64,000 nt of DNA from a virus, in IMG/VR virus record IMGVR_UViG_3300030104_003796, positions 1 through 64,000 of that record; one strand, given 5' to 3'. Made by a program: the position numbers and the translations under genes. Shown here in pieces: positions 5,427 to 60,465 of the stretch. The notes beneath the pieces are model-generated. The model ran no database searches and had not been told where the DNA came from. It worked only from the letters and a program-made list of their open reading frames with translations. Position 1 is the first letter of the stretch; every line of letters starts with the position of its first letter.

Positions 5427-5430
5427 TTAA

Positions 5431-6006
5431 GTGGCCTCAATTAACTTAGGTGTTGTTGGTTGTATAGCCGCAAGCGCGGCGACCGTATCTGCACCAACAG
5501 GCGTTAGTATTGCAGAAGACGCAAGTAGCGGTCAAAATAATGCGTTTAGAATTGTTGATTCAGGAGAAGATATAATGACCGTTGATTATTCCGATTGGTC
5601 GAGCGCAACGAGTGAATCTTTCGGAACACAATATGAAAAAGAAGTTAGCGCGGGTGATTTAGGAGATTTCAACACTTATGGAGTTATAAATATGGATGTT
5701 TATGCTTATTTGAGAGCGACAGGGGCTACATCTTTTTCATGGAGTGGTGCGGTGTATTCAAACAGTTTTGGTTCGGGTAGTGGTGCGCCAAGCGCGAGTA
5801 TATCTGGCGCAGGGGGCGCCGGTCAAGACGGAACGAGTAGCGGTGTTGGTATTAGGCTTATAATAAGTCCGGGTTCGGGCAGGGGCGGCGCAAACAATTG
5901 GCCGAGTGCAGGAATGAATGTTATTTACAAATTAACAGGAACGGCTACTAATTCAGGCGGTAGCACCGCCGCAGATTTATACTTGAAGTATTCATTCACA
6001 AGTTGA
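5431..6006 (+). CDS. putative virion/tail protein, glycine-serine rich
   Basis: This 191-residue protein begins with GTG 5 bp after the fibre stop codon, so it is probably translated together with the fibre. It is rich in G, S, A and T, includes a low-complexity stretch near residues 110-150 (SGSGAPSAS...GAGGAGQDG), and ends in a beta-rich segment. It has no cysteine cluster, membrane span or enzymatic motif. A glycine-rich tip protein or fibre accessory adhesin is plausible from position and composition. I do not recognise the family. Confidence 0.6.
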   Translation: MASINLGVVGCIAASAATVSAPTGVSIAEDASSGQNNAFRIVDSGEDIMTVDYSDWSSATSESFGTQYEKEVSAGDLGDFNTYGVINMDVYAYLRATGATSFSWSGAVYSNSFGSGSGAPSASISGAGGAGQDGTSSGVGIRLIISPGSGRGGANNWPSAGMNVIYKLTGTATNSGGSTAADLYLKYSFTS

Positions 6007-6010
6007 TAAC

Positions 6011-6547
6011 ATGAAAATAGATATTAGTATTCCTGCTGGCGTATCAGGTGATTTTGAAATAGCACACTATACTAAAGATACAACTGATAATAAATGGCCG
6101 TTATATTTGCTTCATACCAATGAGGCTTATGATAACTATACTGTATTATTAAAAAAGGGTTGCGATATGCCGATAATGCAGGACTCAGAAGCAGAATATA
6201 ACGACCACGAATGGCTGTGGAATAACGCAAAAGGAGATGTGTTAATCGGTGGTTTGGGAATCGGTATGACTCATCATATCTTAATAGAAAATCCAAACAT
6301 TACATCAATTACCATTATTGAAAAATATCAAGATGTGATAGATTTAGTATGGGATAACTGCGTTAAAGATGAACGCTTTAATTTAATCCACGCAGACATA
6401 AACACATGGGAGATACCTGCTGATAGTCATTGGGATATTGGTTGGTTTGATACATGGATTTCAGATGGTGATTGGGGCGAATATAAAACCAACATGAAAG
6501 AAAAATATGGTCCTTATATTACAGAAATAAATGGTTGGTGTTGGTAA
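6011..6547 (+). CDS. Rossmann-fold aminopropyltransferase/methyltransferase-like protein
   Basis: This 178-residue protein has the order of motifs of the spermidine synthase / SAM-methyltransferase fold. The glycine-rich loop VLIGGLGIGMTHHIL is near residue 80. It is followed by ITIIEKYQDVI (acidic residue after beta-2), then RFNLIHADI, then WDIGWFDTW in the position of the motif IV strand. The N-terminal half may be the small beta domain typical of SpeE-like proteins. It starts 4 bp after the preceding stop. Substrate is not evident: polyamine synthesis for DNA charge neutralisation, or modification of a fibre residue, would both fit. The last ~30 residues are shorter than in a full methyltransferase, so it may be a divergent or reduced enzyme. 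Confidence 0.6.
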   Translation: MKIDISIPAGVSGDFEIAHYTKDTTDNKWPLYLLHTNEAYDNYTVLLKKGCDMPIMQDSEAEYNDHEWLWNNAKGDVLIGGLGIGMTHHILIENPNITSITIIEKYQDVIDLVWDNCVKDERFNLIHADINTWEIPADSHWDIGWFDTWISDGDWGEYKTNMKEKYGPYITEINGWCW

Positions 6548-6550
6548 AAC

Positions 6551-6566
6551 CCATTAAATATACACC
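6551..6566 (+). promoter_or_regulatory. TATA box for the 2OG oxygenase gene
   Basis: CCATTAAATATACACC lies with its TATA centre about 26-28 nt before the ATG at 6585, and no Shine-Dalgarno is seen. This is the geometry of an archaeal leaderless transcript and matches other promoters in this window. Confidence 0.5.
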
Positions 6567-6584
6567 ATATTTTCTTAACATATA

Positions 6585-7133
6585 ATGGACCACCCAAATT
6601 GGTTACTATACGAAGGAATCCTTAGCGAAGGAGATTGCGAGCGTTGGCTTGACTTAGGCAGACAAGCACCCATCCAAGATGCAAAAACCTTTGGCGGGCA
6701 TGATACCCACCGTAAAACAGACATTAGGTGGCTTCCTAATGTTGCACCATACGCGGAAATGCACGATTTTTTAATGAAGGTTGCTATGGATGCTAACAAA
6801 CAATTTAACCTTACGCTTACAGATTTACCGCCCCTGCAATTTACTGAGTATGCAGACGTAGGCCATAAGTATGATATGCACCATGATGTTGATTTCAACA
6901 GGCAAGACGGCAAGCACAGAAAATTAAGTATTGTTGTGCAATTAACCGACCCCGATGATTACGAAGGCGGAATCTTATCTTTTGCTCACACACAAAATCC
7001 CGACCCCGAAGCACTAATTAAGCGCGGTTCTATTATATGCTTTCCTTCTTACTTAGAACACGGCGTATCGCCTATTACTTCCGGCTCAAGAACGAGCCTT
7101 GTTGGGTGGTTTGAAGGTCCTCGCTGGCGATAA
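6585..7133 (+). CDS. 2-oxoglutarate/Fe(II)-dependent oxygenase (prolyl-4-hydroxylase-like)
   Basis: This 182-residue enzyme matches the PKHD/P4H-type double-stranded beta-helix dioxygenases. The iron ligands are visible as H.D in YDMHHDVD (about residues 105-110) and the distal H in YLEHGV (~163). The 2OG-binding arginine is in GSRTSLVGWF (~173), and the protein ends GP.WR as in PKHD hydroxylases. The N-terminal LSEGDCERWLDLG is the usual helical lead-in. The nearest structural substrate is the collagen-like fibre encoded just upstream, so a hydroxylase acting on that fibre is possible but unproven. It has its own leaderless-type promoter, so expression may be timed separately from the fibre. 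Confidence 0.85.
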   Translation: MDHPNWLLYEGILSEGDCERWLDLGRQAPIQDAKTFGGHDTHRKTDIRWLPNVAPYAEMHDFLMKVAMDANKQFNLTLTDLPPLQFTEYADVGHKYDMHHDVDFNRQDGKHRKLSIVVQLTDPDDYEGGILSFAHTQNPDPEALIKRGSIICFPSYLEHGVSPITSGSRTSLVGWFEGPRWR

Positions 7134-7162
7134 TTTAACTATCGGTATTACGACCATAAAAC

Positions 7163-7519
7163 ATGGAAAAAGAGGATAAGCAATTCGTTGCGGTGATTCT
7201 TTTTTTAATCTTTTTTTTAAGCAATCATTCTGTTAGTTTTGACCTTGCGGAATCAAAACACCATACGCTCCCATGCTATACAGTAAAGGGAGAAGTAATA
7301 GAAAAAGAAGAAAATAATAATAATTATATTTTGTATGTTATCACTGAAATAGATGGTGAAAAACAAGGCTACAGTTTGCACGTTGCAGAAGAAACATATA
7401 AGAATCACGATGTAGGAGACACATACGAGCGGATAACCTGCGAATTAGCGTATCTAAATGAGATAAAAACCATAATTGATGAATTATTAGACGCAGGTAT
7501 TATGGAAGTGAATGAGTGA
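7163..7519 (+). CDS. small exported or membrane-anchored protein, unknown
   Basis: This 118-residue protein has a hydrophobic N-terminal segment (FVAVILFLIFFLSNHSVSF, residues ~8-26) that could be a signal anchor, then a polar alpha/beta domain with two cysteines. ATTTAACTATC about 27 nt upstream is a possible TATA box, giving a leaderless start. It is the first of a run of small proteins with membrane segments between the fibre enzymes and the connector genes, a place where lysis or envelope functions would fit. Family not recognised. Confidence 0.5.
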   Translation: MEKEDKQFVAVILFLIFFLSNHSVSFDLAESKHHTLPCYTVKGEVIEKEENNNNYILYVITEIDGEKQGYSLHVAEETYKNHDVGDTYERITCELAYLNEIKTIIDELLDAGIMEVNE

Positions 7520-7683
7520 AAAGAAAAGGAAAAATAGTCTATACCCCACCCGAAAAGTCATGGACTAACATAAACATTGAAGAAACACCTCATGGGTATA
7601 AACTTTATCGGGGTAGCGATAACAGACATTTTGCCGTCATTCCTATTTCCGCAGTAAAACAAATTGTATATGAGAGAGATTAA
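7516..7683 (+). CDS. small basic protein, 55 aa
   Basis: GTG at 7516 overlaps the preceding stop as GTGA, indicating translational coupling. The product starts MKRKGKIVYTPPEKSW and ends SAVKQIVYERD; it looks like a compact beta-rich domain (TPHGYKLYRGSDNRHFAVIP). The stop TAA is 1 bp before the next ATG. Function unknown. Confidence 0.5.
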   Translation: MKRKGKIVYTPPEKSWTNINIEETPHGYKLYRGSDNRHFAVIPISAVKQIVYERD

Positions 7684-7684
7684 G

Positions 7685-8062
7685 ATGCAAGAGAATAATA
7701 CCACAATAATTGAAGATTGTATAGATTGTGTAAGCGAATCGTCATCCTTATTGGATGATATAGAAGTAGTGCTTGTAGCGATAGCCGCACTTTTGGCTAT
7801 TGGCGCATGGGCCTACAAAAAGTATCAGATATTGAATGCTGACGGTAAGATTACACTTGACGAAGTAATTGATTCTATGGGAGAAGTAAAAGAAAAGGTA
7901 TCAGAAGCAAAGGCTGAATTGAAAACCATTGAAGACACATTGGAATCACGAAATGTTGCTGAATTAAAGGCTATGTTGAAGGAAAAGGGCCTTGCTGTAA
8001 CCGGCAAAAAGGCCGACCTAATCGCCCGACTTGAAGCAAGCATGGGTGACGATAGTGAGTGA
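7685..8062 (+). CDS. membrane protein with C-terminal SAP domain
   Basis: I place the start at ATG 7685, just after the preceding stop, giving 125 residues. Order: acidic, Cys-containing N-terminus; one hydrophobic span (VVLVAIAALLAIGAWAY, ~residues 29-45); a charged coiled-coil region (~60-95); and a C-terminal SAP-type helix-loop-helix (NVAELKAMLKEKGLAVTGKK...LIARLE). SAP domains usually bind DNA, and their fusion to a membrane span is unusual. It could be a holin-like or DNA-to-membrane tethering protein. The SAP assignment is by motif pattern. Confidence 0.55.
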   Translation: MQENNTTIIEDCIDCVSESSSLLDDIEVVLVAIAALLAIGAWAYKKYQILNADGKITLDEVIDSMGEVKEKVSEAKAELKTIEDTLESRNVAELKAMLKEKGLAVTGKKADLIARLEASMGDDSE

Positions 8063-8297
8063 CGAAGTAATAGATTTAAGACTTGATAACTTAGAAGAAA
8101 CCGCAAAAAGACATGAAAGACTAATCGAACAATTGGTTCAGTCTAACATGGATATGAAAACCGGTTTGGCTCAAGTGGCTACTGAATTAGAAGTTACTAA
8201 CGGTCTTATCGCATCCTATATGTCTAACACACAAAAGATTACTTTAGCACTTATCGCAATTGTAGCAGGTGCTATGGGTATTTCAACGCAGATGTGA
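8055..8297 (+). CDS. small coiled-coil membrane protein (XhlA/holin-like)
   Basis: I choose GTG at 8055, overlapping the preceding stop by 8 bp, which gives 80 residues (MSDEVIDLRLDNLEET...). A charged amphipathic coiled coil (~residues 5-55) is followed by a C-terminal hydrophobic span (ITLALIAIVAGAMGIS). This is the layout of XhlA-type phage lysis accessory proteins. Its neighbours have similar layouts, suggesting a lysis or membrane cassette. Identity is inferred from architecture. Confidence 0.5.
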   Translation: MSDEVIDLRLDNLEETAKRHERLIEQLVQSNMDMKTGLAQVATELEVTNGLIASYMSNTQKITLALIAIVAGAMGISTQM

Positions 8298-8301
8298 TAA
8301 A

Positions 8302-8469
8302 ATGGACCAAAACCAATGGTACGCATGGTGTCGTAATGTGGTTGAAAGGCTCACAAATGTTGAAAAGACACTAACAATCATAAACAAACGACAGAAGCGA
8401 ATGCTTTATGTGGTATTGATAGGATTTGTGGCGGTGTTGTGTAATGGCTTATTATTGTTCTATAAGTGA
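8302..8469 (+). CDS. small coiled-coil membrane protein, 55 aa
   Basis: ATG 8302 follows the previous stop by 4 bp. MDQNQWYAWCRNVVERLTNVEK begins an amphipathic helix, then a basic patch (NKRQKRM), then a C-terminal membrane span (YVVLIGFVAVLCNGLLLFY). It repeats the coiled coil plus C-terminal span architecture of the preceding gene and may be a diverged paralogue or holin partner. It overlaps the next gene by 26 bp. Confidence 0.5.
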   Translation: MDQNQWYAWCRNVVERLTNVEKTLTIINKRQKRMLYVVLIGFVAVLCNGLLLFYK

Positions 8470-25656: not shown

Positions 25657-26598
25657 TTATAACCATTCCGTTATCCGCTTTTGGGGAACCAATGTATCTG
25701 ATTCTGTTATTTCATAATCACCCCAATGTGCTATTCGATGACGGGCTATTTCTAAATAATCCTCATCTAATTCAATACCCACGAAGTTAAACCCTTCAAG
25801 ACAAGCGGCTATGCCTGTCGTGCCGCTACCCATGAACGGGTCAAGGACTATGCCTTCGGGCGGCGTGATTAGGCGACATAGATACCTCATCAAATCAATG
25901 GGCTTTACTGTCGGGTGATTGTTCCTTTGTTCTCTTGTTCTGTTTTCGGGGTTGCGGTTATTGTTTCTCAGCCCTTCATCTGTTTGCATACCGTAGGTCG
26001 AGTTTTTATTTAATTTAAGGGGTAAATTATCGCACCCTGCATTTCTCTCATTTTGGTTAGCCTTGATACAGTAAAAATAACGAGATTGTTCCAACCCACC
26101 TGCCGCTTCTTCATCAAAGATTACATTAGCGGGCCAACGGCTTTCTTCTTCTATTCTGCAACCATCTATATTCATAGCCCCTGTTCCGTATTCATCCATG
26201 TTATCAAGCACTTTACCTATCAATGGTTTGCGAGCAAGACAAATAGGTTCATTGGCGGGTTTTAATTGCGTTCCCCAACCACCACCCACATTGAGCGACT
26301 TAGGGAATCCTTCGCCGTAAATCCATTGGATTTGGTCGCGTATCTCAAACCCTGCGTCTTCGATATTTACTACGACTCGGTGATAGGTTCGTGTGCCGGA
26401 GAAAGCCAACAAATGACCACCATGCTTTAACACACGCAGACATTCTCGCCATATCTCAACAGACGGCACATCGTAATCCCATTTGGATTGCATGAAAAGT
26501 AATCCGTATGGTGGGTCGCAGACGATAGAATCAATGGAGTTATCATCCATCTCCTTGAGGACACGAAGACAATTACCCAATCTCAAATCTATATCCAT
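25657..26598 (-). CDS. DNA adenine/cytosine-N4 methyltransferase (beta class)
   Basis: This 313-residue protein has the catalytic motif IV DPPYG at ~residues 28-32 (SIVCDPPYGLL). The SAM-binding motif DPFMGSGTTGIA is near 255-266, followed by FVGIELDEDYLEIARHRI. Motif IV before motif I is the beta-class order used by many N6A and N4C enzymes. It lies at the end of the PolB gene (10-bp overlap), so it is probably co-expressed with replication and used to protect viral DNA. No cognate endonuclease is visible, so it is an orphan. Confidence 0.88.
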   Translation of the reverse strand: MDIDLRLGNCLRVLKEMDDNSIDSIVCDPPYGLLFMQSKWDYDVPSVEIWRECLRVLKHGGHLLAFSGTRTYHRVVVNIEDAGFEIRDQIQWIYGEGFPKSLNVGGGWGTQLKPANEPICLARKPLIGKVLDNMDEYGTGAMNIDGCRIEEESRWPANVIFDEEAAGGLEQSRYFYCIKANQNERNAGCDNLPLKLNKNSTYGMQTDEGLRNNNRNPENRTREQRNNHPTVKPIDLMRYLCRLITPPEGIVLDPFMGSGTTGIAACLEGFNFVGIELDEDYLEIARHRIAHWGDYEITESDTLVPQKRITEWL

Positions 26599-46780: not shown

Positions 46781-47800
46781 TTATAGGTGTGCATCAACGA
46801 GTCTGCCCCAAGCCTTAGTCATCATCTTATCACCAACACCAAAGACCGCGTTTTCTGCGGTTTTTTGTTTGATACTTCCTTCGGAACCAAAGACGGCGTT
46901 AGCCTTTTGGAATGAATGATGCGTTACGTGTTCGGTCAGCGTATTATACGCCGCCCACGCAGTATCAGCCATTCCGCCTGTGGTGTTCGTTGGTGCAGTT
47001 TCTAACTCAAGCAATTCGTCAAGTTTGCGGTTGCCCTGTGCAGATAGACCATAAATATTAGTCGTATCTTTTTTAGTGCGTTCCGCATCAGCCTTACCGA
47101 GATAACCTGTGTCGATATAGAATTCTATTCTATCCGCCATATCCATGTGGACCTCAAGCAAACCGTTGGCTTGCTCGGCCCATTTTTTATTTAGGGTGTT
47201 GGTCAATTTCAAAGCCCTGCTAAGGTGCTTGATTTTGTCGTGCATTCTTGACGAATGACGAATAACCAAATCAGATGGTTTGATGCCCATTTCCCTCATG
47301 TTATGAAGGACCGCGCTCGTCTGATTTCTGCAAAACAGACGGTTAAGAGTCGGAAGGACTCTAAAGGCTTGTGAGCCATCATAGGCATTCGACAGATAGA
47401 TTTTAGCGTTGGAGACGTCGTTATCACCAATGGTGATATGTTCGGGCAGTGCTAACTGCGCAAAAATTCTCGCGCCGCCATCAGTCTGCCCGACTCTCTC
47501 CCACTCCGCTTGACCTGCGCCGACTAATCCATCGGCAACCGAAAACATTTCTGTTGGTTGGAGGTTGGTATAATTTTTACCAACCGCACCTAACGGTTGC
47601 CCTGTGTCGGACCGGAAATTTACGCTATACCTTTCGGGTAGCAATTCCCCTGTGTCTGGGTGTGGGATTCGCCGCTTCTCAACGGTGAAGTCCAAACCTG
47701 CGTTCTTCATTACTTCTTCATTTGTTCGGCCAACGGCTTCCTGCCCCATCAATAGATGAGCAGGAATCGTCTTACCGATTCTTTGTCTAAAATAATCCAA
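46781..47800 (-). CDS. DUF932 / phage-plasmid-like protein (TIGR03299 type)
   Basis: I place the start at TTG 47800, which has AGAGGTG 6 nt upstream, giving 339 residues (LDYFRQRIGKTIPAH...). HLLMGQEAVGRTNEEVMKNA, YSVNFRSDTGQPLGAVGKNY, TNLQPTEMFSVAD and the later FCRNQTSAVLHN are the DUF932 hallmarks. The family is widespread in phages and plasmids; the molecular role is unknown, with links to replication or defence proposed. It is transcribed from conserved promoter d with a ~100-nt leader that contains a hairpin and a 14-codon frame. Confidence 0.75.
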   Translation of the reverse strand: MDYFRQRIGKTIPAHLLMGQEAVGRTNEEVMKNAGLDFTVEKRRIPHPDTGELLPERYSVNFRSDTGQPLGAVGKNYTNLQPTEMFSVADGLVGAGQAEWERVGQTDGGARIFAQLALPEHITIGDNDVSNAKIYLSNAYDGSQAFRVLPTLNRLFCRNQTSAVLHNMREMGIKPSDLVIRHSSRMHDKIKHLSRALKLTNTLNKKWAEQANGLLEVHMDMADRIEFYIDTGYLGKADAERTKKDTTNIYGLSAQGNRKLDELLELETAPTNTTGGMADTAWAAYNTLTEHVTHHSFQKANAVFGSEGSIKQKTAENAVFGVGDKMMTKAWGRLVDAHL

Positions 47801-47875
47801 ATTTTTCACCTCTTTTTTTTTCAAACACTCAACCGCTATCATCGCCCTTGACTTCAAAGGCTCAATAGGTTGGTA

Positions 47876-47918: not shown

Positions 47919-47947
47919 AGTATTTAAGGTTTTTTATCGTGAGTTAT
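47919..47947 (-). promoter_or_regulatory. conserved early-type promoter, copy d
   Basis: Minus-strand AACTCACGATAAAAAACC then TATA TTAAATACT. The first TTATGTAAC copy (47947-47955) abuts it directly upstream, as also at copy e. Confidence 0.75.
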
Positions 47948-47969
47948 TATGTAACATCTTTTTTTCCGC

Positions 47970-48010
47970 AAAAAAAATCACCGACCCGCTCCCCGAAGGG
48001 AACGAGTCGG
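47970..48010 (-). terminator. intrinsic terminator with UUCG loop
   Basis: Minus-strand RNA: CCGACUCGUUCCC, loop UUCG, GGGAGCGGGUCGG, then UGA and eight U. The 13-bp stem includes two G-U pairs that are A-C mismatches on the opposite strand, so the structure is made only by leftward RNA. It ends the operon of the genes at 48053 and 48292. Confidence 0.75.
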
Positions 48011-48052
48011 CTTACGTATTTCAGAATCTATTTTTTCAGTCGTTGTTTTTTT

Positions 48053-48247
48053 TCACTCAACGATTTCAAGAATGCTCGGATGCTTTGCGACTCTCCATAC
48101 TTCGCCGCTTGCGCTACGGCCATTTATGCCTCTCGCCTCATGCGTCTTCACCTTGACTGATTTTTGGTTCACTTTGATAACTTCACCTACGGTCTTTTGA
48201 CCATTGGCTCTCCCAAATCTGACCTTCATTCCAATTTTCAAATCCAT
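48053..48247 (-). CDS. small beta-barrel (KOW/SH3-like) protein, 64 aa
   Basis: ATG 48247 preceded by GGGGGTGAAAAAAG gives MDLKIGMKVRFGRANGQKTV. GMKVRFGRANGQKTVGEVIK resembles a KOW- or SH3-type small barrel that binds RNA or DNA. Unknown function. Confidence 0.5.
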   Translation of the reverse strand: MDLKIGMKVRFGRANGQKTVGEVIKVNQKSVKVKTHEARGINGRSASGEVWRVAKHPSILEIVE

Positions 48248-48291
48248 TCTTTTTTCACCCCCTTTTTTTTTAACGGTTGATTTTTTCTGTT

Positions 48292-48570
48292 TCACTCAAT
48301 GACTATGTATTCGCCCGATGCGACTTTAGCCCGAACATCTTTGATGCTCATTTCGCCCAAAAATCTTAACAGGTATTTATTTGTCGTTGCGCTATACATA
48401 TTCCAATATGGTTCAAACAAAGTTATTTGGTTTCCACCTTTAGGCCCGATTTCGCCGTAATCTCTCACGGCTACTATGGACTCGTACGACTGAAAAATTT
48501 TCCGCGCACCCTCACTAATGATGTATTGGTTTTTTGCTATCGTTCTTACTCTTGATGTAATTCTATTCAT
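48292..48570 (-). CDS. small protein, 92 aa, unknown
   Basis: ATG 48570 (MNRITSRVRTIAKNQYIISE) is the first good start downstream of promoter e; the TATA centre is 33 nt away. Alpha/beta, with the end KVASGEYIVIE. Unknown. Confidence 0.5.
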   Translation of the reverse strand: MNRITSRVRTIAKNQYIISEGARKIFQSYESIVAVRDYGEIGPKGGNQITLFEPYWNMYSATTNKYLLRFLGEMSIKDVRAKVASGEYIVIE

Positions 48571-48597
48571 AATCCTCAATATGAAGTATATAGTCAT

Positions 48598-48624
48598 AGT
48601 ATTTAACTTTTTTTATCGTGAGTT
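48598..48624 (-). promoter_or_regulatory. conserved early-type promoter, copy e
   Basis: Minus-strand AACTCACGATAAAAAAAG then TATA TTAAATACT. Three TTATGTAAC copies in 19-bp tandem units (48626, 48645, 48664) lie immediately upstream. Confidence 0.75.
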
Positions 48625-48721
48625 ATTATGTAACTTCTTTTTTATTATGTAACTTCTTTTTTATTATGTAACTTACCTGTGCTACCAAGATAAAAATTAT
48701 GTAACTTTATATTTTTATCGC

Positions 48722-48758
48722 AAAAAAAAATAGGGGGGAGATTTACTCAAACATCTCC
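48722..48758 (-). terminator. intrinsic terminator overlapping the end of a microgene
   Basis: Minus-strand GGAGAT, 10-nt loop, ATCTCC, then CCCCTA and nine T. The loop contains the stop codon of the 23-residue gene. Confidence 0.55.
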
Positions 48759-48814
48759 TTCAATCTGCGCTCAAATCGCGCCCACATTTTTTCGGTTGAT
48801 AATTTTTTAGTCAT
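48743..48814 (-). CDS. charged microprotein, 23 aa
   Basis: ATG 48814 forms TAATG with the preceding stop. Product MTKKLSTEKMWARFERRLKE + MFE, an amphipathic helix. The stop lies in the loop of the terminator hairpin. Confidence 0.4.
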   Translation of the reverse strand: MTKKLSTEKMWARFERRLKEMFE

Positions 48815-49338
48815 TATTTTTTCTCCTTGCAGTTTTTACAGATGCCGACTTTCTCGGCGGCGTTCCACATCACGAAGTCGCGCACAGGTGCGCGGGCATT
48901 ACATGATGAGCAGGAAAGATAGACGGCAATATCAATGCCGTTTGTTGGTTGCATCGTGCGCGTGTAGTCGCGCATCTGCGCGGCAATTTTTGCCGCCTGT
49001 CTGAGTCGTGCGGCCTCTCTTTTCTCGGCCCTATTTTTATTGACCCACGCTATGCGCTCGTTGGTGTCGTCTTCTTTTGGTGGGGTGAATGACCTTGACT
49101 TCGGACATGATGGGCGGTGCTTGCGAGAAGGACAACCACAGGCACGGAGTTTGACTTTACCGCGTCCGCCCATGTGCTGACCTTTTTTTCTCTTGATACC
49201 GTGTCGAGGATTTTCGGCGGGTAATTTTTTGCATGGCTCACACATGACGCGAGAGCGACCCTTGAGATTCTGTTCAAATTCTTTAGAGCATCGGCGGCAG
49301 GTGAAATATCTTATCTTTATCTTTTTATTCTGAGGCAT
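48814..49338 (-). CDS. multi-zinc-finger basic protein, 174 aa
   Basis: ATG 49338 has a strong Shine-Dalgarno (AGGAG). Three Cys clusters: CRRC...CEPC (~14-35), CGC...C (~67-78) and CSSC...CKNC (~143-170), separated by very basic stretches (GIKRKKGQHMGGRGKVK). The layout suggests a nucleic-acid-binding protein. A TATA element near 49403-49415 gives a ~45-nt leader, and two TTATGTAAC copies lie upstream of it. It could be the protein that binds the array, but this is unproven. Confidence 0.6.
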   Translation of the reverse strand: MPQNKKIKIRYFTCRRCSKEFEQNLKGRSRVMCEPCKKLPAENPRHGIKRKKGQHMGGRGKVKLRACGCPSRKHRPSCPKSRSFTPPKEDDTNERIAWVNKNRAEKREAARLRQAAKIAAQMRDYTRTMQPTNGIDIAVYLSCSSCNARAPVRDFVMWNAAEKVGICKNCKEKK

Positions 49339-49400
49339 TGTTTTTTCTCCTGTGTTGTTCGCGGGTGTGTGTGTGTCTGTCCATAATATACCATCTTTTT

Positions 49401-49418
49401 CATAGTATATAATACTAT
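49401..49418 (-). promoter_or_regulatory. TATA promoter of the multi-zinc-finger gene
   Basis: Minus-strand AGTATTATATACTATG. Transcription would begin near 49383 and give a ~45-nt leader, unlike the leaderless genes nearby. Two TTATGTAAC copies (49437, 49450) lie within 40 bp upstream. Confidence 0.45.
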
Positions 49419-49552
49419 CTTAGTGCGATTCTCCTTTTATGTAACATTATTATGTAACTTTTTTTCTCTTTTTTTTACACAGAATCAAGATACGAATTAT
49501 GTAACTTATCTGCTGTGCTGGTCCAAAAAAAAATAAGGTCAAAAAATTATTT

Positions 49553-49963
49553 TCAATCCTCACGCGGTCGCTCATGAGGCGGGAGAGAAAATTTACAGCG
49601 CCTAAATCTGCTTCGGCGAATGGTTTTGCTTCCGGCTTCGGTTTCCGGCTCTTGTGCTGGTTGGTTTCGGTGGGCTATTCGCTCTCGTAACTCGACGTTA
49701 CTGATGCGGTAGGGCATCGGATTATCATTGACCGAACATTTCCATTGGTATCTCCGCTCATCACAGAAGCAATCAGCGAGGGTGTATCTTGAGCCGCTTC
49801 GCGGGCATCGGTAGGGCTTGCGTATTTTTTCCCCGTTTTCATCCTCAACCATTGGGTTGAATTTTCGGTTGAACCTTCGGATTATTTCGGGGGTTATTTT
49901 TCCAGCATGAGGCCCCATTTTTTCAGCATCACCACATAACCTACACCAACGACTTCGGCACAT
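49553..49963 (-). CDS. cysteine-rich zinc-binding protein, 136 aa
   Basis: ATG 49963 is 25 nt from the centre of TTAAATAT (49984-49991), so the message is leaderless; the longer TTG frame is rejected. MCRSRWCRLCGDAEKMG gives a Cys cluster, with CPRSGS...CFC...CSV further on. Basic C-terminus (TIRRSRFRRCKFSL). The first leftward gene beside the TTATGTAAC core, hence a candidate for origin or regulatory function. A T run (~49522-49548) after it could stop transcription. Confidence 0.55.
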   Translation of the reverse strand: MCRSRWCRLCGDAEKMGPHAGKITPEIIRRFNRKFNPMVEDENGEKIRKPYRCPRSGSRYTLADCFCDERRYQWKCSVNDNPMPYRISNVELRERIAHRNQPAQEPETEAGSKTIRRSRFRRCKFSLPPHERPRED

Positions 49964-50853
49964 AAACAAGCGTTATTTTTTTTATATTTAAGGTCGGCGA
50001 TTTCCCATTCTCCTTTTATGTAACTCTTTTATGTAACTTTAGTTTAATTCAAAAGTTTATGTAACTTTCTTTTGTGATTTAAAAAATTATGTAACCTTCT
50101 TTTTTTCTGCCCCCTTTTTTTATGTAACTAAATGTAACTATAATCGTAATTTATGTAACGTTTTTTTATGTAACTAATTTTATCCGCCTTATTATGTAAC
50201 TTTTCTTATGTAACTTTTTTCTTATGTAACTTTTATTATGTAACGCTACCTACACAAGCACACGCGCGGATTTTTTTTGTTACATAATATGGTTACATAA
50301 TTTTTTGAGATACACAATATGGTTACATAATTTTTGATTGGTGTTACATAATATCAGATTGGAGTTACATAAGGTGTTACAATGAGTTACATAATGCCCG
50401 AAAAAAAAGTTACATAATACTATTGGGGTTTTAGGTCCTTTTTTTGGGGTTTTTGGCTATTATGTAACTAACGAAATGGCTGTCTCTCGATTAGGGGGTA
50501 AAACGATGATGGGTTTCATTAGTTACATAATCGAAATCCGAAAATCGGCTCAATTGTGGTGAACAGGCTCGCAGTATAGCGTTTTCATGTGGTATTTAGG
50601 GCGACCTAAACTCCGAAAAACACCCCGAAATTATGTAACTTTATTTTGGCGCATTATGTAACTCTAAATCGAGATTGCTCAATCGTGCATACTATATACT
50701 ATGACTTCCTCTCAGAAGCGGGCCGGACTCGCAAAATATTATGTAACATTCTTGATTCCACTAAAAAATTATGTAACTTCGCTAAATCATAGAAATTATG
50801 TAACATATTATGTAACACGCCGGTTCTTAAGTGGAGGCTTGTTCGCTCATAAT
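49964..50853. other. gene-free core of the array, candidate replication origin / control region
   Basis: About 890 bp with no credible gene between leftward and rightward units. Eleven forward TTATGTAAC copies (50016-50244) face seven reverse copies (50279-50417) around a GC-rich axis near 50255-50270 (CACACGCGCGG). A G-rich tract (50425-50456) and a GGCTCGCAGTA box (50566-50576) follow. It is AT-rich, repeat-dense and at a divergence of transcription, as expected for an origin with iterons. No Orc1/Cdc6 gene is visible. Confidence 0.5.
50686..50700 (+). promoter_or_regulatory. TATA promoter of the rightward unknown operon
   Basis: GCATACTATATACTA. Transcription would begin near 50720, giving a ~130-nt leader with four TTATGTAAC copies before ATG 50854. 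Confidence 0.45.
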
Positions 50854-51063
50854 ATGTCGGAAGACAGGGAGAAAACGAAGCAAGAACAACGAAAGCAATC
50901 GCTTGTTAATGCGCTAATCATCGTGAAGTTGATTGGCCCTAATATGCGAAAGACTCAACCGGAGTCATCATGGTCCACAGACCTACGAGATGACCCCGAT
51001 ATTGAGGCGGTAATCACGGCCCACATATCAGAAGATGTGAACATGAATTGTGAGGTGTATTGA
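50854..51063 (+). CDS. unknown protein, 69 aa, beside the array
   Basis: I choose ATG 50854 (MSEDREKTKQEQRKQSLVNA), because the longer frame from 50701 merely translates array repeats. The start region ATGTCGGAAGACA is shared with the gene at 51807. The protein is helical with a charged start, then LIIVKLIGPNM and an acidic C-terminus. It ends 1 bp before the next ATG. Unknown. Confidence 0.55.
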   Translation: MSEDREKTKQEQRKQSLVNALIIVKLIGPNMRKTQPESSWSTDLRDDPDIEAVITAHISEDVNMNCEVY

Positions 51064-51441
51064 ATGACGTTCCGCATCACTACAAGGGGCGCGGATGCGT
51101 CAAAGGATGGTGAGAGATACCGAAAGGAGGTGGATGCAAACGATACGAAGACGTCATCATGGCGGCTCGTATTGCGAGATGACGGCAAGCACTTCATGGA
51201 ATCATGGGTTGAAACATATCATCACCACTCCGGCAAGTCAAGGACGAGTTATGTAACTATCAGATTATCAGATGAAGAAGTCGCAGACATGGGAGATGCA
51301 ATCAACGGATTCAATATCCATCATCACCCATTACATCAATTAACGGGTGAATACGAGATTCCAACCACGCACCTATATGCTGGCGATGAAATCACAGGCT
51401 CACACCAAACCAACGAAGACCTAAAGATTCAGAATGACTGA
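51064..51441 (+). CDS. unknown protein, 125 aa, beside the array
   Basis: MTFRITTRGADASKDGERYR starts immediately after the previous stop. Beta-rich (SSWRLVLRDDGKHFMESWVE, SYVTIRLSDEEV) with many His residues (YHHHSGK, NIHHHPLHQ). One array copy (51249) is read within it as S-Y-V-T. Unknown; may be part of a complex with its neighbours. Confidence 0.55.
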   Translation: MTFRITTRGADASKDGERYRKEVDANDTKTSSWRLVLRDDGKHFMESWVETYHHHSGKSRTSYVTIRLSDEEVADMGDAINGFNIHHHPLHQLTGEYEIPTTHLYAGDEITGSHQTNEDLKIQND

Positions 51442-51628
51442 TTATGTAACTTAATGGGGGGTAGGGCCGCTTCATTCCTGCCCCCCAACCAAGTTATGTA
51501 ACTTTGTCCTTTTTTGTAACTCCGCTATTATGTAACTTCGCTCTTTTTTAAGAAACCAATATTATGTAACATCAGAAACCTGCGAAACTGGCTCAAATTT
51601 CAAGGTTGAAAAATTATGTAACTAAGGG

Positions 51629-51640
51629 AGTATATAAGCA
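51629..51640 (+). promoter_or_regulatory. strong TATA box inside the array
   Basis: AGTATATAAGCA, a near-consensus archaeal TATA box, 14 bp after an array copy (51614-51622). The start would be near 51655, beside ATG 51653. Confidence 0.45.
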
Positions 51641-51777
51641 ACGGACCGAAAAATGGCCTCGCGTTGTGCAAAAAGTCCGTTCAGAAAAATTGCGATTATG
51701 TAACGACTCAAGGGGTATAAACGATGCACTGCGAGCCGGAAATTCGGAAACGGGGCTTATGTAACTAAACTGCCCGA

Positions 51778-51791
51778 TTCATATACTACTA
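51778..51791 (+). promoter_or_regulatory. TATA promoter of the 466-aa gene
   Basis: TTCATATACTACTA; centre ~24 nt before ATG 51807 with no Shine-Dalgarno, so leaderless. An array copy (51757-51765) lies 15 bp upstream. Confidence 0.5.
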
Positions 51792-51806: not shown

Positions 51807-53207
51807 ATGTCGGAAGACATAGGAGAAAATGAAGCAATAAGAACGATTGCAGCAGACGCGCTTAACGCGCCGTCTGCTGTTGTGGTGTTGGGGGCCTTGC
51901 TGCCTACCTTCGTCAAATCCTTAATGGCTCTACCAGCCATCAAGGTCAAGGAGTTAGGTCAAACCTTACTCAGGAACCACCCCAAAACCACCACAAAGAA
52001 GAGCACGGTTGAGGCCATTGTTCAGAACGCCAAAGACCGCGTTAATCTAATCCCAATATGGGGTAAGCCGATTGACGTTAAGACGGCTAACAAGTGGGCG
52101 GCGAATGGTGTATTCGGTGATAGGGTCGGTGAGGTTGTAAAAATCCATCATTGGGATTCATCAGACTCAGACGACCGATGGAATGAAGCGGCTCGATTCG
52201 TCAAGTCATCAAAGACACTTGACGCACTGTATCAAACCCTTGATGCACCGTTGAAGATTGTTAGAACTACAAGGACAGCAATCGAGCGCCGAAGTAATGC
52301 GGCGGGAATGTACGACACAACAACCGTTACCACGAAAGGCGAATCACACGGAACAGGTCAGCAAATGAGGCACGAATACCGGCTACGCTGTATTCACCAC
52401 CTATGTGCTACCGCCTCCGGTGTTCAATCATTCGTAAGGGGTGTCGGAATGGGTGCATCCATTGAATTGAATCCACCTATTGAGAGAGGTTCGGAAGACT
52501 ACAACCGAGCATCAAGAGACGTGATTCATCCACCTTCGACACTGTATGGTGATGAAGGCGACGTGGTGGTCTATGATACACAAGAAGCGAAGAAAAACTG
52601 CAAGTGTCCAACTTGCGGCGGTGCTGTGCTTTGGGATTGGAGGCTTGCAGGTTCAGCAAGGTCTAATTCTCAGCCTGTCGGCGGTTGGGGTTCGGTTCTG
52701 AAACTGCCTTCAATCAAGATGATTCACAGGACAAAGGAGGCAGGTTATCAAGTGGTTGAGGAAGGTATCGAATCAAACCGCTTAGTCAATTGTGAGATGA
52801 ATGACGGGTCGCCGAGAATATCAACCACATTCAACCGAATGCTCGGATACCCTGCATACGGTCGATATGGTCAAGGTGAAAATCAGCGAGTAGGATACGA
52901 AGCAGACCCCGAAGCATACACGATAGACCACAAGGGAAGGAGAAAGGGAATCCCAAAGACGGTTCACCTACCAGCGTCAATTCAGCGTAGGGTCATACCA
53001 ATTCAGACCCCCGCCGGTATGTGCTATATGCTCGGATGGGTTGCTGTCCATGATATTGATGGATTGGCTCGCGGCATTGAATCAACCAGCCTCGATTCAG
53101 TCGCCTTAATGGTCAACATCATTCGTCATCAATTAGATGCAGGAAACGAAAAGGCTCAAGCGGGTTCTAACCTGCTTGATGCAATCAGCAATTTGACCGA
53201 TTACTGA
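51807..53207 (+). CDS. large unknown protein next to the array, 466 aa
   Basis: Starts MSEDIGENEAIRTIAADALN with a helical N-terminus, then a mixed alpha/beta body. A zinc-knuckle-like CKCPTCGG occurs at ~residues 266-273, and a basic DHKGRRKGIPKTVH follows at ~372-385. Motifs of known polymerases, helicases, integrases and Orc proteins were not found. Codon use is richer in GC than most leftward genes. It is the longest gene in the array zone, with a leaderless promoter; a role as an initiator, repressor or partition protein that recognises TTATGTAAC is a reasonable guess but unproven. A strong hairpin follows its stop. Confidence 0.65.
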   Translation: MSEDIGENEAIRTIAADALNAPSAVVVLGALLPTFVKSLMALPAIKVKELGQTLLRNHPKTTTKKSTVEAIVQNAKDRVNLIPIWGKPIDVKTANKWAANGVFGDRVGEVVKIHHWDSSDSDDRWNEAARFVKSSKTLDALYQTLDAPLKIVRTTRTAIERRSNAAGMYDTTTVTTKGESHGTGQQMRHEYRLRCIHHLCATASGVQSFVRGVGMGASIELNPPIERGSEDYNRASRDVIHPPSTLYGDEGDVVVYDTQEAKKNCKCPTCGGAVLWDWRLAGSARSNSQPVGGWGSVLKLPSIKMIHRTKEAGYQVVEEGIESNRLVNCEMNDGSPRISTTFNRMLGYPAYGRYGQGENQRVGYEADPEAYTIDHKGRRKGIPKTVHLPASIQRRVIPIQTPAGMCYMLGWVAVHDIDGLARGIESTSLDSVALMVNIIRHQLDAGNEKAQAGSNLLDAISNLTDY

Positions 53208-53477: not shown

Positions 53478-53765
53478 TCACTTTGGGTCATCAGTGTTTG
53501 AGCCGACTCCCTCATTCCCCTCGTTGGCTCGCCATTGAAGTCTTTGGTCTTTACTTCGTGTTTCAAGTGGTAGTTTATTTCGCAGTAGTGCGAATCTAAC
53601 TGCTTCGGGTCGGAATTTGCCCCAATACTTCGGAATGTTTTTACTGATTTCCTCAGAAATTTCACGCGCTATACGCCATTCTTCAAAGTAGCCTTCGTTA
53701 AACAATCTCATTATTGCTTCGTTTGCTAACTCTTTTCTTGTCTTCGGCCCAAATTTCGTTCTCAT
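53478..53765 (-). CDS. small DNA-binding-like protein beside the terminase, 95 aa
   Basis: MRTKFGPKTRKELANEAIMR with IAREISEEISKNIPKYWGKF resembles an HTH/wHTH with a basic end. It overlaps the large terminase stop by 4 bp (ATGA). Position makes it a candidate small terminase subunit, though it is encoded after, not before, the large subunit. Confidence 0.5.
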   Translation of the reverse strand: MRTKFGPKTRKELANEAIMRLFNEGYFEEWRIAREISEEISKNIPKYWGKFRPEAVRFALLRNKLPLETRSKDQRLQWRANEGNEGVGSNTDDPK

Positions 53766-55258
53766 CTCTTAATCACCTTTCCGCCTATACCTTTTGCTCC
53801 CCGATTTACTTTAGAACCACTACCACCGAGCCATTCTCCGGCTTCTGCCTTTTTCATAATAACGGGCATTTCAAATCCCTTAGCAGTAAATTGGTCTATT
53901 GCGTGTGCAAACGCCATTACACAATCGTTATGTTTTCCTAAGTCTTCAATAAGACCGTTTTTCCATGCGTGTGTTTCTAATTCGTCAAAGAGGGTGTTCA
54001 CTTGCATTCGTGTGTTATGGTCGCCGTATGGGAATATAATTAACTCGCGCTCAAACCAAACACGAAGTCTATTGAGTATTCCCTGCTTTAGTGTGCGGTT
54101 GCTAACTTTGCTACCTCGATAATCCACATTTGCATTTTTCTGTTCAATAAGACTCTTGTATAACTGCTGGAATCCCACATCTTCGGATGCAAAGGCAGGA
54201 TAACCATATCTCTTATTCCATTCAATAATCATGTCTGCCTGTCTGTCCGGTGGAAAATCATTACGTCGCCACATATTTACAAAGTGGATAAAGCCCTCTT
54301 GGTCTTGCTTAAGGACAATCATAACTGAAAAGTCCTTTCCTAAACCATGTGCGGGGTCAAACCCAATACTATACTTGCAGTTATCATCTTTTTCTGTTTG
54401 AAATATATCATCCATGTTAAGATGTTTTCTAACTAACTCTCTCGGATATACTGCGGCTTCGTCATCAATAACCCTGCACAAATACTCCTGCACAAAAGCC
54501 AATTCACCCATACCTTCTCGTTGCTCAAGGAGATAAGCCGCACTTCGATATTCTTCCCAAAGCACTTCGGGTTTTATTTCACCATCACTTGCTCGCCATT
54601 CGTCATAGTTAGTGATAGCGGAATACACGGCTGATTTCCAAACGGGGTTTTCTAACATTTCCGTGTGGTATAAATCAACCATACTCATTGGTGTTCCCAC
54701 GCAGTAAAACCACGAATCGGGGCTTAACATAGGGATAATTGCTTTCTTATACCATGATTGCAGGGCCTTAGGGTTGGTATCGTCTGAATCAACCAACACA
54801 TCGTCAAATGCTACACAGGCAGGATGCGCCCCACGAATCGCAGAACCAACAGATGTAGCACGAATCCATGCACCGTTGGTAAAATGCAATTCTAATTTGT
54901 TGCCTTTGGAGGGGCTAATGTATTTTCTTAACTGTGGGTGCTTCTTTAGGTCGGCTCGTATTTCCTCAAGCCTTTGAGCGGCAGTATCTTTACTCGCTGA
55001 GATGAGCCAACAGGTAAAGGGTGAACCATCACCCTTCTTCTCATAGAGGCATTGGTGCAATAATTTAACACGAAGGGTTGTTGATTTGGAATGGTCGCGT
55101 GGTGCAATAATACAGACACGATGAACGGATGCGCCTTTTCTATCTGAATATAGGTCCATCCATTCTCCGATGTGCTTACCCCATGTGTAGCCGAGCCATT
55201 TATAGAAATAGGCAATATCTTTCCTACTTCTTTCCATAGAAAAATTAGTATTACTCAT
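53762..55258 (-). CDS. terL: terminase large subunit
   Basis: This 498-residue protein has a Walker A-type IAPRDHSKSTT (51-61), Walker B CVAFDDVL (148-155), the coupling motif VGTPMS (~187-192) and the RNase H-like nuclease start SIGFDPAHGLGKDFS (297-311, catalytic Asp301). Later acidic residues lie in SEDVGF and HNDCVMAFAHA. It packages DNA into the procapsid at the portal and cuts it. It overlaps the phosphoesterase gene by 8 bp and is transcribed away from the portal gene, which is unusual but seen in some archaeal viruses. Confidence 0.92.
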   Translation of the reverse strand: MSNTNFSMERSRKDIAYFYKWLGYTWGKHIGEWMDLYSDRKGASVHRVCIIAPRDHSKSTTLRVKLLHQCLYEKKGDGSPFTCWLISASKDTAAQRLEEIRADLKKHPQLRKYISPSKGNKLELHFTNGAWIRATSVGSAIRGAHPACVAFDDVLVDSDDTNPKALQSWYKKAIIPMLSPDSWFYCVGTPMSMVDLYHTEMLENPVWKSAVYSAITNYDEWRASDGEIKPEVLWEEYRSAAYLLEQREGMGELAFVQEYLCRVIDDEAAVYPRELVRKHLNMDDIFQTEKDDNCKYSIGFDPAHGLGKDFSVMIVLKQDQEGFIHFVNMWRRNDFPPDRQADMIIEWNKRYGYPAFASEDVGFQQLYKSLIEQKNANVDYRGSKVSNRTLKQGILNRLRVWFERELIIFPYGDHNTRMQVNTLFDELETHAWKNGLIEDLGKHNDCVMAFAHAIDQFTAKGFEMPVIMKKAEAGEWLGGSGSKVNRGAKGIGGKVIKR

Positions 55259-59314: not shown

Positions 59315-59653
59315 ATGTGGGAATACCAAGCAGAAATCTTACGAGTCGTTGATGGCGACACAGTGGATGTGCGAATTGATTTAGGATTCAAGGTTCATTA
59401 CAATGTCCGTGTGCGGCTACATGGGATAAACGCTCCCGAATCTCGCACACGCGATAAAGAAGAAAAGATACGAGGACTTGCGGCTAAAGAAAGGCTTGAG
59501 CAATTAGTAGCCGATAAAACAGTAATCTTAAAATCACACGGCGTAGGTAAGTTTGGTAGGTGCTTAGGAGAATTGACGGTAGGCTCGACTAATGTAAATG
59601 CACAACTTGTTAAAGAAGGCCATGCCGTTAAGTATTTCGGTGGTAAGAGGTGA
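59315..59653 (+). CDS. staphylococcal nuclease-like (thermonuclease) protein
   Basis: ATG 59315 follows GGGGTGATTGTTTA. The protein of 112 residues has VVDGDTVDVRIDLGF (Ca-binding Asp), VRLHGINAPESRT (Arg and Glu of the active site) and GKFGRCLGEL (second catalytic Arg). It is therefore likely a Ca-dependent nuclease cutting DNA or RNA to nucleotides. No signal peptide. Virion or host-degradation role is possible. It overlaps the next gene by 4 bp. Confidence 0.88.
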   Translation: MWEYQAEILRVVDGDTVDVRIDLGFKVHYNVRVRLHGINAPESRTRDKEEKIRGLAAKERLEQLVADKTVILKSHGVGKFGRCLGELTVGSTNVNAQLVKEGHAVKYFGGKR

Positions 59654-60465
59654 ATGGGTTGTCTGAATCAGAAGTCGAATCAATTATTGAAACCGTAAAT
59701 GAGAGAGCGCAAGAAATACGCTCACTTATGATTACTCTTGCATCTATTGTCGCCCTTCTAATGCCCGGACTTGAAGCGGTTGGTATTCTTGATTTTACAC
59801 CTTACGGACAAGGTGATGATGAATGGGTTACTGACGATGATTGGGAAATGGGAGATGACTTTACCTGTGGAGATGGCTCGGTTATCCAAGCCTCTCTTGT
59901 AAATGACGGTTACAAAAATTGTCGAGATGGTTCGGACGAACCCGAATCCGATGATGAGCCGGATGGCGAAGTGATTAAAGGATGCACAGATGATGAAGCC
60001 TTAAATTACAATGAACAGGCTATAGAAGATGATGGGTCTTGTGAATACGAGGAAGAACCCGAAGAAACAGGCGGTTGCACAGACCCCGATGCAACAAACT
60101 ATGACCCATACGCAGATTATGACGATGGTTCTTGCGAGTTTAGAGAAGGGCAACCATGCGACCCTGAAATGTATGACGCTTACTTTGAATACAACAACAC
60201 TACAATTACTTTCCATTGGGATGCAGACCTTATCTGCGATAACGAACCACACAACCTTACAGTCATTTGGACTATCTATGAAAACGAAACCGGCAATTGG
60301 ACCGGACTTCAAGATGGATTAACCTATGAAACTTATTATCAAGATTGGGATTATGTAAATCTAACTATGCAAGGATTAGTTAGTGGTAAGTATGATATAT
60401 TCGCTACTTTTGAAATACACGGTGATTATACAAGAGCCGTTGATTGGTATGCAATAGAAGTTTAA
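59650..60465 (+). CDS. membrane-anchored acidic surface protein with LDL-A and GCTD-type repeats
   Basis: This 271-residue protein has an N-terminal helix, then a hydrophobic span (LMITLASIVALLMPGLEAVG, ~26-45), then an extended acidic region. FTCGDGSVIQ...YKNCRDGSDE resembles an LDL-receptor class A module (acidic calcium box D-G-S-D-E). It is followed by two GCTD...A.NY....DDGSCEY/F repeats, a motif known from surface proteins of marine bacteria and Poseidoniales archaea. The C-terminus has several N-x-T sites (NNTT, NETGNWT, NLTM) that could be glycosylated. It would sit on a membrane or virion exterior. Confidence 0.6.
   Translation: MNGLSESEVESIIETVNERAQEIRSLMITLASIVALLMPGLEAVGILDFTPYGQGDDEWVTDDDWEMGDDFTCGDGSVIQASLVNDGYKNCRDGSDEPESDDEPDGEVIKGCTDDEALNYNEQAIEDDGSCEYEEEPEETGGCTDPDATNYDPYADYDDGSCEFREGQPCDPEMYDAYFEYNNTTITFHWDADLICDNEPHNLTVIWTIYENETGNWTGLQDGLTYETYYQDWDYVNLTMQGLVSGKYDIFATFEIHGDYTRAVDWYAIEV

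Follow-up and report, generated by a model that had tools for sequence, protein, structure and literature searches.

In archaeal viruses, the promoters of many small, poorly conserved genes share an early-gene motif (the Aca8 or anti-defence gene motif), which has been proposed to mark anti-defence genes; the core of TATA box and transcription factor B recognition element (BRE) is similar from virus to virus, while its surroundings differ, implying different regulators, and in SMV2 inverted repeats lie near the BRE (PMC11065993). One or a few sites per promoter is the rule in the archaeal virus cases reviewed, and very dense promoter-proximal arrays are unusual (PMC5569661). The upstream activating sequence (UAS) for GvpE of haloarchaea consists of two 8-nt elements with a 4-nt gap, beside the BRE, and this spacing is critical for activation (PMC4390858). 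The intergenic repeats of halovirus HF2, 58 and 29 bp long, contain a TATA box and occur in nine copies across the genome (PMC8707807). Outside Archaea, the stoperators of Cluster A mycobacteriophages are short asymmetric sites with a lineage-specific consensus that diverges with the binding protein; they are found genome-wide and oriented with transcription (PMC6550527). Here we describe an array of a 9-bp word, TTATGTAAC, in the IMG/VR virus record IMGVR_UViG_3300030104_003796, whose positions 1 to 64,000 were analysed as one stretch (the window). The array appears to be a new, extreme form of the virus-specific early-gene regulatory sequences of archaeal viruses, and no description of it was found in the openly accessible literature searched. 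Judged from sequence comparison, it is probably a cis-regulatory platform, of operator or UAS type, on which a DNA-binding regulator of the virus, probably encoded by a nearby gene (gene A), would control small hypervariable genes.

The word occurs in 42 exact copies, 34 forward and 8 reverse, between 47947 and 51765, precisely as counted in the initial annotation, which had also considered such a density implausible by chance. Dinucleotide shuffles of the window bear this out, with a mean of 0.62 copies and a maximum of 4. No comparable density exists elsewhere: over the whole record (66,935 bp) the total is still 42, all in the 3.8-kb zone. A single copy with one mismatch lies in the zone (TTTTGTAAC, 51512) versus nine scattered elsewhere. 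The flanks of the sites vary freely, T being slightly favoured after the word and A or T before it. As had been noted at the outset, spacing is irregular and the sites are almost all outside genes: copies in direct orientation form runs, gaps vary between 3 and several hundred bp, and 41 of the 42 sites are noncoding, though noncoding DNA makes up only 34% of the zone. The sole site within a credible open reading frame (ORF 51064-51441) is that at 51249. Those at 50739-50816 fall inside the listed ORF 50701-51063 only through its annotated first ATG, which is probably not where translation starts; a TATA-like TTCTTAAG precedes the alternative ATG at 50854 by 30 nt. The zone divides leftward from rightward genes, as also recognised in the initial annotation, and forward sites precede genes of either direction. 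There is one main flip of orientation, at 50245-50278. A 9-bp word with irregular gaps does not make an array of clustered regularly interspaced short palindromic repeats (CRISPR), in which repeats of ~23-50 bp alternate with regular unique spacers.

Both checks set beforehand in the initial annotation came out in favour of the array: its density is unmatched elsewhere, and close relatives keep the repeats. Three relatives carry the same array (the contigs behind L028, L022 and L019/L025, in our numbering of compared loci), and in a 64.7-kb relative contig all 39 copies of the word are inside the zone. In ungapped alignments of the three to the window, only 1 of 844 site bases differs, versus 135 of 1309 in the 9-nt flanks on either side, 168 of 1369 in other noncoding DNA and 249 of 1346 in coding DNA. 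Copies missing from the relatives are mostly accounted for by deletion or alignment gaps, not by point change. This near-invariance, with losses by deletion, therefore indicates strong selection on each base of the word. The word is absent from contigs related through the family B DNA polymerase (PolB), namely L029 and L031-L037, of which the short ones may not span the zone and L034 and L035 are distant. Triples of TTATGTAAC in apparently unrelated viral contigs (L009-L018, L020, L021, L024 and L027) were set aside, as they have few copies and some show coding-like spacing (39 bp in L011). One of these, L016 (IMGVR_UViG_2839082394_000002), has seven copies in both orientations within 270 bp (2340-2610), possibly an independent iteron-like set.

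The position of the sites relative to promoters is a further line of evidence. TATA-like boxes of archaeal type lie 23-31 nt before the ATG, and the nearest site ends 8-26 nt upstream of the TATA in 23 of 32 promoters from eleven arrays, versus 9.2 ± 2.5 promoters (maximum 18 in 2000 trials) when sites were randomly assigned to noncoding positions other than core promoters. Because the limits of 8-26 nt were fixed with the distances already in view, the precise probability deserves caution. A site lies 7-27 nt upstream of the TATA at each of the six promoters that could be recognised in the window. A word upstream of many small genes next to a TATA/BRE core, the feature shared by archaeal virus early-gene regulatory sequences, is thus present here. 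The window lineage uses direct copies, not the inverted pairs seen in three other loci. L087 has eight pairs, GTTACAAAA-N2-TTTTGTAAC, five of them with an ATG 41-43 nt downstream; L090 has four, TACTACAAA-N4-TTTGTAGTA, and L091 also four, ACTACAAAA-N2-TTTTGTAGT, both sets beside promoters. In all three loci the pairs stand 9-15 nt from the TATA. Beyond the L087 pairs (4510-8340), GA tracts and another recurrent element (TATTaGGCTt-like) were noted, which might be where a different regulator binds.

Relatives of the viral terminase revealed related words at the equivalent position. These relatives were scanned for over-represented 9-mers, and the zones following the terminase gene, where dense arrays were found, were labelled by a gap in the scores, 'strong array' at 60 or above and 'none' at 44 or below; the contigs are metagenomic and mostly fragments, and all evidence is comparative. 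The words found were GTTACAATA in L041 (41 copies), ACTACATAAC in L075 (62), TGTTACAAAAC in L087 (64), TACTACAAATT in L090 (57-59), AACTACAAAAC in L091 (63, with the same word in L079, L094, L104 and L105), GGTTACAATT in L107 (24), ACTACAAATT in L110 (24), AAGTTACAAAT in L113 (16) and CCTACGAAG in L109 (12). A core (C/T)TACA is common to all of them except that of L109. The statement in the initial annotation that no known system has this sequence stands for the exact word, within the searches made, but the word is one of a family of related lineage-specific words. Confinement recurs as well: in the 68.5-kb record of L090, 57 of 60 copies are inside 6.2 kb. The sharpest contrast is provided by L041, whose terminase is 97% identical to that of the window and which nevertheless has another word. 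Small genes follow one another through the zone in the relatives, many of them served by a separate promoter, and the gene content of this block varies between close relatives. Weaker candidates in other terminase relatives (AAATCCAAA, CTCGCAAGC and GGTATATAA) were not counted as arrays, since CTCGCAAGC comes mostly from a coding tail and GGTATATAA is a TATA box. Two further repeats were observed. Between genes of the array-less L044, L061, L062, L068 and L071 a weaker word, (A/G)AATCCAAAT, recurs mostly as direct repeats and may mark the sites of another regulator. In L082 (10194-14433) and L057, successive small genes, including the Cys-rich gene B, share a coded tail ...DACEA/DACED that gives an apparent repeat CTCGCAAGCG and looks like shared C-termini.

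Gene A (289-468 codons) adjoins the terminase gene and its small neighbour. It is present in 17 of 17 strong-array zones and in 0 of 26 array-less zones. Since several of these zones come from close kin, co-occurrence was followed on a terminase tree, on which the joint state of array and gene A changes seven times, at least four of them on well-supported branches; L090, with both, groups with L082, L084 and L095, which have neither. When all zone proteins were clustered without prior choice, two gene A clusters were the commonest array-only families (8/18 and 5/18, versus 0/26), and a short variant of gene B also reached 5/18 versus 0/26. A search with gene A found three additional contigs, each with an adjacent array (L127, n=55; L132, n=23; L134, n=17). 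Gene A changes with the word, as judged from the window and L041, whose words differ and whose gene A products are 25% identical against 97% for the terminases. In most lineages the nearest site is more than 150 nt from the promoter of gene A, which would suit a gene switched on ahead of the regulon that it controls; the exceptions are the window lineage, L041 and L075. The TATA-like TTCATATA ahead of gene A is conserved in three relatives. A SAP-like segment in the L107 product (E 0.012) is below Pfam's cut-off, and no zone protein matched a known regulator in Pfam or PHROGs. Gene B was rejected as first-choice binder, as it occurs in array-bearing and array-less viruses alike.

We propose that a sequence-specific viral protein, most likely the gene A product, would bind the 9-bp word. 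The promoter-nearest sites would position it on the upstream side of the TATA/BRE, the docking place of archaeal activators such as GvpE, and the further copies would raise local occupancy or allow the protein to spread across each intergenic region. The regulator would in this way switch, as a set, the promoters of the small hypervariable block and of the leading gene in the operon next to it; the word would differ from one virus lineage to the next and change together with gene A. We infer activation rather than repression, and expression early in infection. Of the three roles put forward in the initial annotation, the TATA distance, the base-perfect conservation and the co-inheritance with the terminase-adjacent gene favour that of a platform for a viral master regulator, whereas an origin or a partition site found no support. 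We advance more tentatively a wider possibility, that gene A may represent an undescribed class of viral DNA-binding regulator acting on 40-64-copy arrays, an enhancer-like nucleoprotein hub over hypervariable (perhaps anti-defence) genes, with a recognition word that has repeatedly changed and all sites following.

Besides the interval chosen after inspection, several results weigh against a promoter-directed platform served by gene A. Many copies are far from any promoter, beyond the need of a simple operator. A cruder test, counting start codons 25-75 nt from a site, gave 31 against 38.6 expected from random noncoding placement (not significant); sites fill entire intergenic regions and many predicted starts are wrong, and the TATA-anchored test was used instead. 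The tree yields only four well-supported independent pairs (sign test, p 0.125). The gene A products could be shown to be homologous only inside three clusters (window-L041, L107-L113 and the A2 group); comparing profiles of the two main groups did not establish homology between them, and the genes in L087, L109 and L110 count as gene A by their position alone. Domain searches gave no confident DNA-binding assignment for gene A, and AlphaFold2 models from two alignments were unusable (mean predicted local distance difference test scores of 34 and 33).

Among described systems, the early-gene motif of archaeal viruses is the nearest kind, being likewise a word common to the promoters of many small, poorly conserved genes. 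That motif lies within 100 bp of the start codon, around the core promoter (PMC11065993); here a 9-bp word of tailed viruses is present in 40-64 copies, in clusters of up to ~20 in one gap, spread beyond the promoter, and a single candidate regulator gene (290-470 aa, no recognised fold) is paired with it across several words. The paired elements upstream of the TATA in L090 (9-N4-9) and L087 (9-N2-9), and those of L091, resemble the GvpE UAS. GvpE, however, is a leucine-zipper-like protein acting at one or two promoters, not at dozens of sites, and no Pfam or PHROGs match links gene A to it. With the repeats of HF2, a tailed archaeal virus, the array shares an intergenic, promoter-associated position that is conserved among relatives; the HF2 repeats are longer, fewer and carry the TATA within them, while here the word lies outside it. 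The tandem sites of F55 in SSV1 and the operators of AvtR and SvtR (PMC5569661) show archaeal viral regulators, some of them oligomerising, on repeated early-promoter sites, but those are small ribbon-helix-helix (RHH) proteins with one to few sites per promoter, unlike the dense arrays described here.

The main rival, which we consider unlikely, retains the anatomy and reverses the sign: the gene A product, or another protein, would nucleate on the array, coat the promoters and silence the block, as has been suggested for the archaeal viral RHH repressors SvtR and AvtR. The many tandem sites would suit such spreading; AvtR oligomerises and so protects ~100 nt, and repressors of this type are known to have distal sites of high affinity (PMC5569661). 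Nevertheless, the nearest sites are upstream of the TATA/BRE and not over the TATA or start site, where simple archaeal repressors sit, and the gene A product is not recognisably an RHH protein. A replication origin, in which the words would be iterons for a viral initiator and the inverted cluster at 50016-50417 the core, is improbable. It would accommodate the dense direct repeats, with their orientation flip, in noncoding DNA that parts divergent gene blocks, a sign change of the GC skew near 49-51 kb and the replication genes in the genome (PolB, RFC-like). The skew is confounded, though, because it follows gene direction; the irregular spacing, the spread over 2-7 kb and the TATA-relative placement are not those of compact regular iterons; in L087, L090 and L091 the sites accompany one promoter after another along 4-7 kb and have no single core; and no initiator was recognised among the proteins scanned.

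We give little credence to an immunity system of the stoperator type, in which scattered asymmetric repressor sites would silence a prophage and set superinfection immunity. Dozens of short asymmetric sites, and related lineage-specific words that change with a candidate binder, are common to both; yet the copies here are confined to one zone and not scattered genome-wide, their orientation does not track transcription, and no integrase was found among the proteins scanned. Recombination hot spots for swapping small gene cassettes would explain why sites fall between genes and why the content of the block varies among close relatives, but would leave unexplained the TATA distance preference, the inverted pairs and the co-inheritance of gene A, and no recombinase was recognised in the zone; we regard this as quite improbable. 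Finally, the array could be a centromere for partition or a site for packaging, to which a ParB-like protein or a small terminase would bind. This reading has the nearby terminase genes and the many short sites of some centromeres in its favour and is the hardest to credit, given the TATA-relative placement, the site-rich promoters, a small terminase-adjacent gene that occurs with or without an array, and no ParA/ParB pair recognised in Pfam scans, which covered part of the ORFs.

The record encodes PolB, an RFC-like ATPase, terminase, portal, tail tube, tape-measure and collagen-like proteins, and the best-covered PolB matches among named viruses are haloarchaeal tailed viruses (~24% identity). 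The terminase has no close relative among named viruses, and a search for a host with it in 84,980 prokaryote genomes returned no relative. The virus is tailed and probably archaeal, with a host that is perhaps marine; an archaeal host appears likely because of the PolB matches and the archaeal-type TATA boxes. Other features of the genome were recorded. The palindrome TGCGCA is nearly absent from the virus and its near kin (1 in 64 kb versus ~19.5 expected, and 0 in most kin), while the more distant PolB relatives L034, L035 and L037 have 33-44 per 10 kb, in all reading frames. A DNA methyltransferase homologue (25657-26598, minus strand; phrog_67, E 1.4e-74) is encoded beside the DNA polymerase gene. 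A 1740-aa protein (204-5426, plus strand) with 13 collagen-repeat stretches and CBM5/12 carbohydrate-binding modules is likely a fibre, and the product of 59650-60465 (plus strand) has an LDL-receptor class A domain match (E 2.8e-06, above Pfam's cut-off), unusual in a prokaryote virus. Site clusters and genes of the array region are listed in the table.

Table. Site clusters of the 9-bp word and genes in and around the array zone (window coordinates).
Feature	Position	Strand	Remarks
Array site	47947-47955	+	Upstream of the leftward DUF932 gene promoter; 19 nt from TATA-like TTAAATAC (47920-47927, -)
Four-site cluster	48626-48705	+	Upstream of leftward gene 48292-48597; nearest site 19 nt from TATA-like TTAAATAC (48599-48606, -)
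Three-site cluster	49437-49505	+	Upstream of leftward gene B; ~23 nt from TATA-like element (49405-49413)
Largest cluster	50016-50530	both	11 forward (50016-50244), 7 reverse (50279-50417), then 50460 (+) and 50522 (-); nearest site 24 nt from TATA-like element of leftward gene 49553-49963
Six sites	50631-50816	+	Before rightward gene starting at 50854; site 50808 ends ~7 nt before TTCTTAAG (50824-50831)
Single site in ORF	51249-51257	+	Within 51064-51441
Seven sites	51442-51765	+	Before gene A; last site (51757-51765) ends 12-14 nt before TATA-like TTCATATA (51778-51785)
DUF932 protein gene	46781-47857	-	E 1.3e-32; first array-associated gene of the leftward block
Small array-associated gene	48292-48597	-	Homologue in L075
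Gene B	48814-49338	-	174 aa, Cys-rich (R-x-CGCP-x-R-x-H-x3-C), GRG stretch
Small array-associated gene	49553-49963	-	No homologue among compared loci
Small rightward array-associated gene	50854-51063	+	Start moved from 50701
Small rightward gene	51064-51441	+	
Gene A	51807-53207	+	466 aa, Cys-rich (CPTCGG); no Pfam or PHROGs match; candidate array-binding regulator
Small conserved gene adjoining the terminase gene	53478-53765	-	In 68 of the fetched loci
Large terminase gene	53762-55258	-	Anchor for locating the equivalent zone in relatives

A word of this kind marks genes that are probably switched on together, and would therefore list candidate anti-defence genes in a virus group without isolates. 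Close relatives differ in the word that their regulator would recognise, and every one of them supplies dozens of natural targets, so that these viruses would also offer a ready set for studying how a DNA-binding protein alters its specificity while its sites all change in step.

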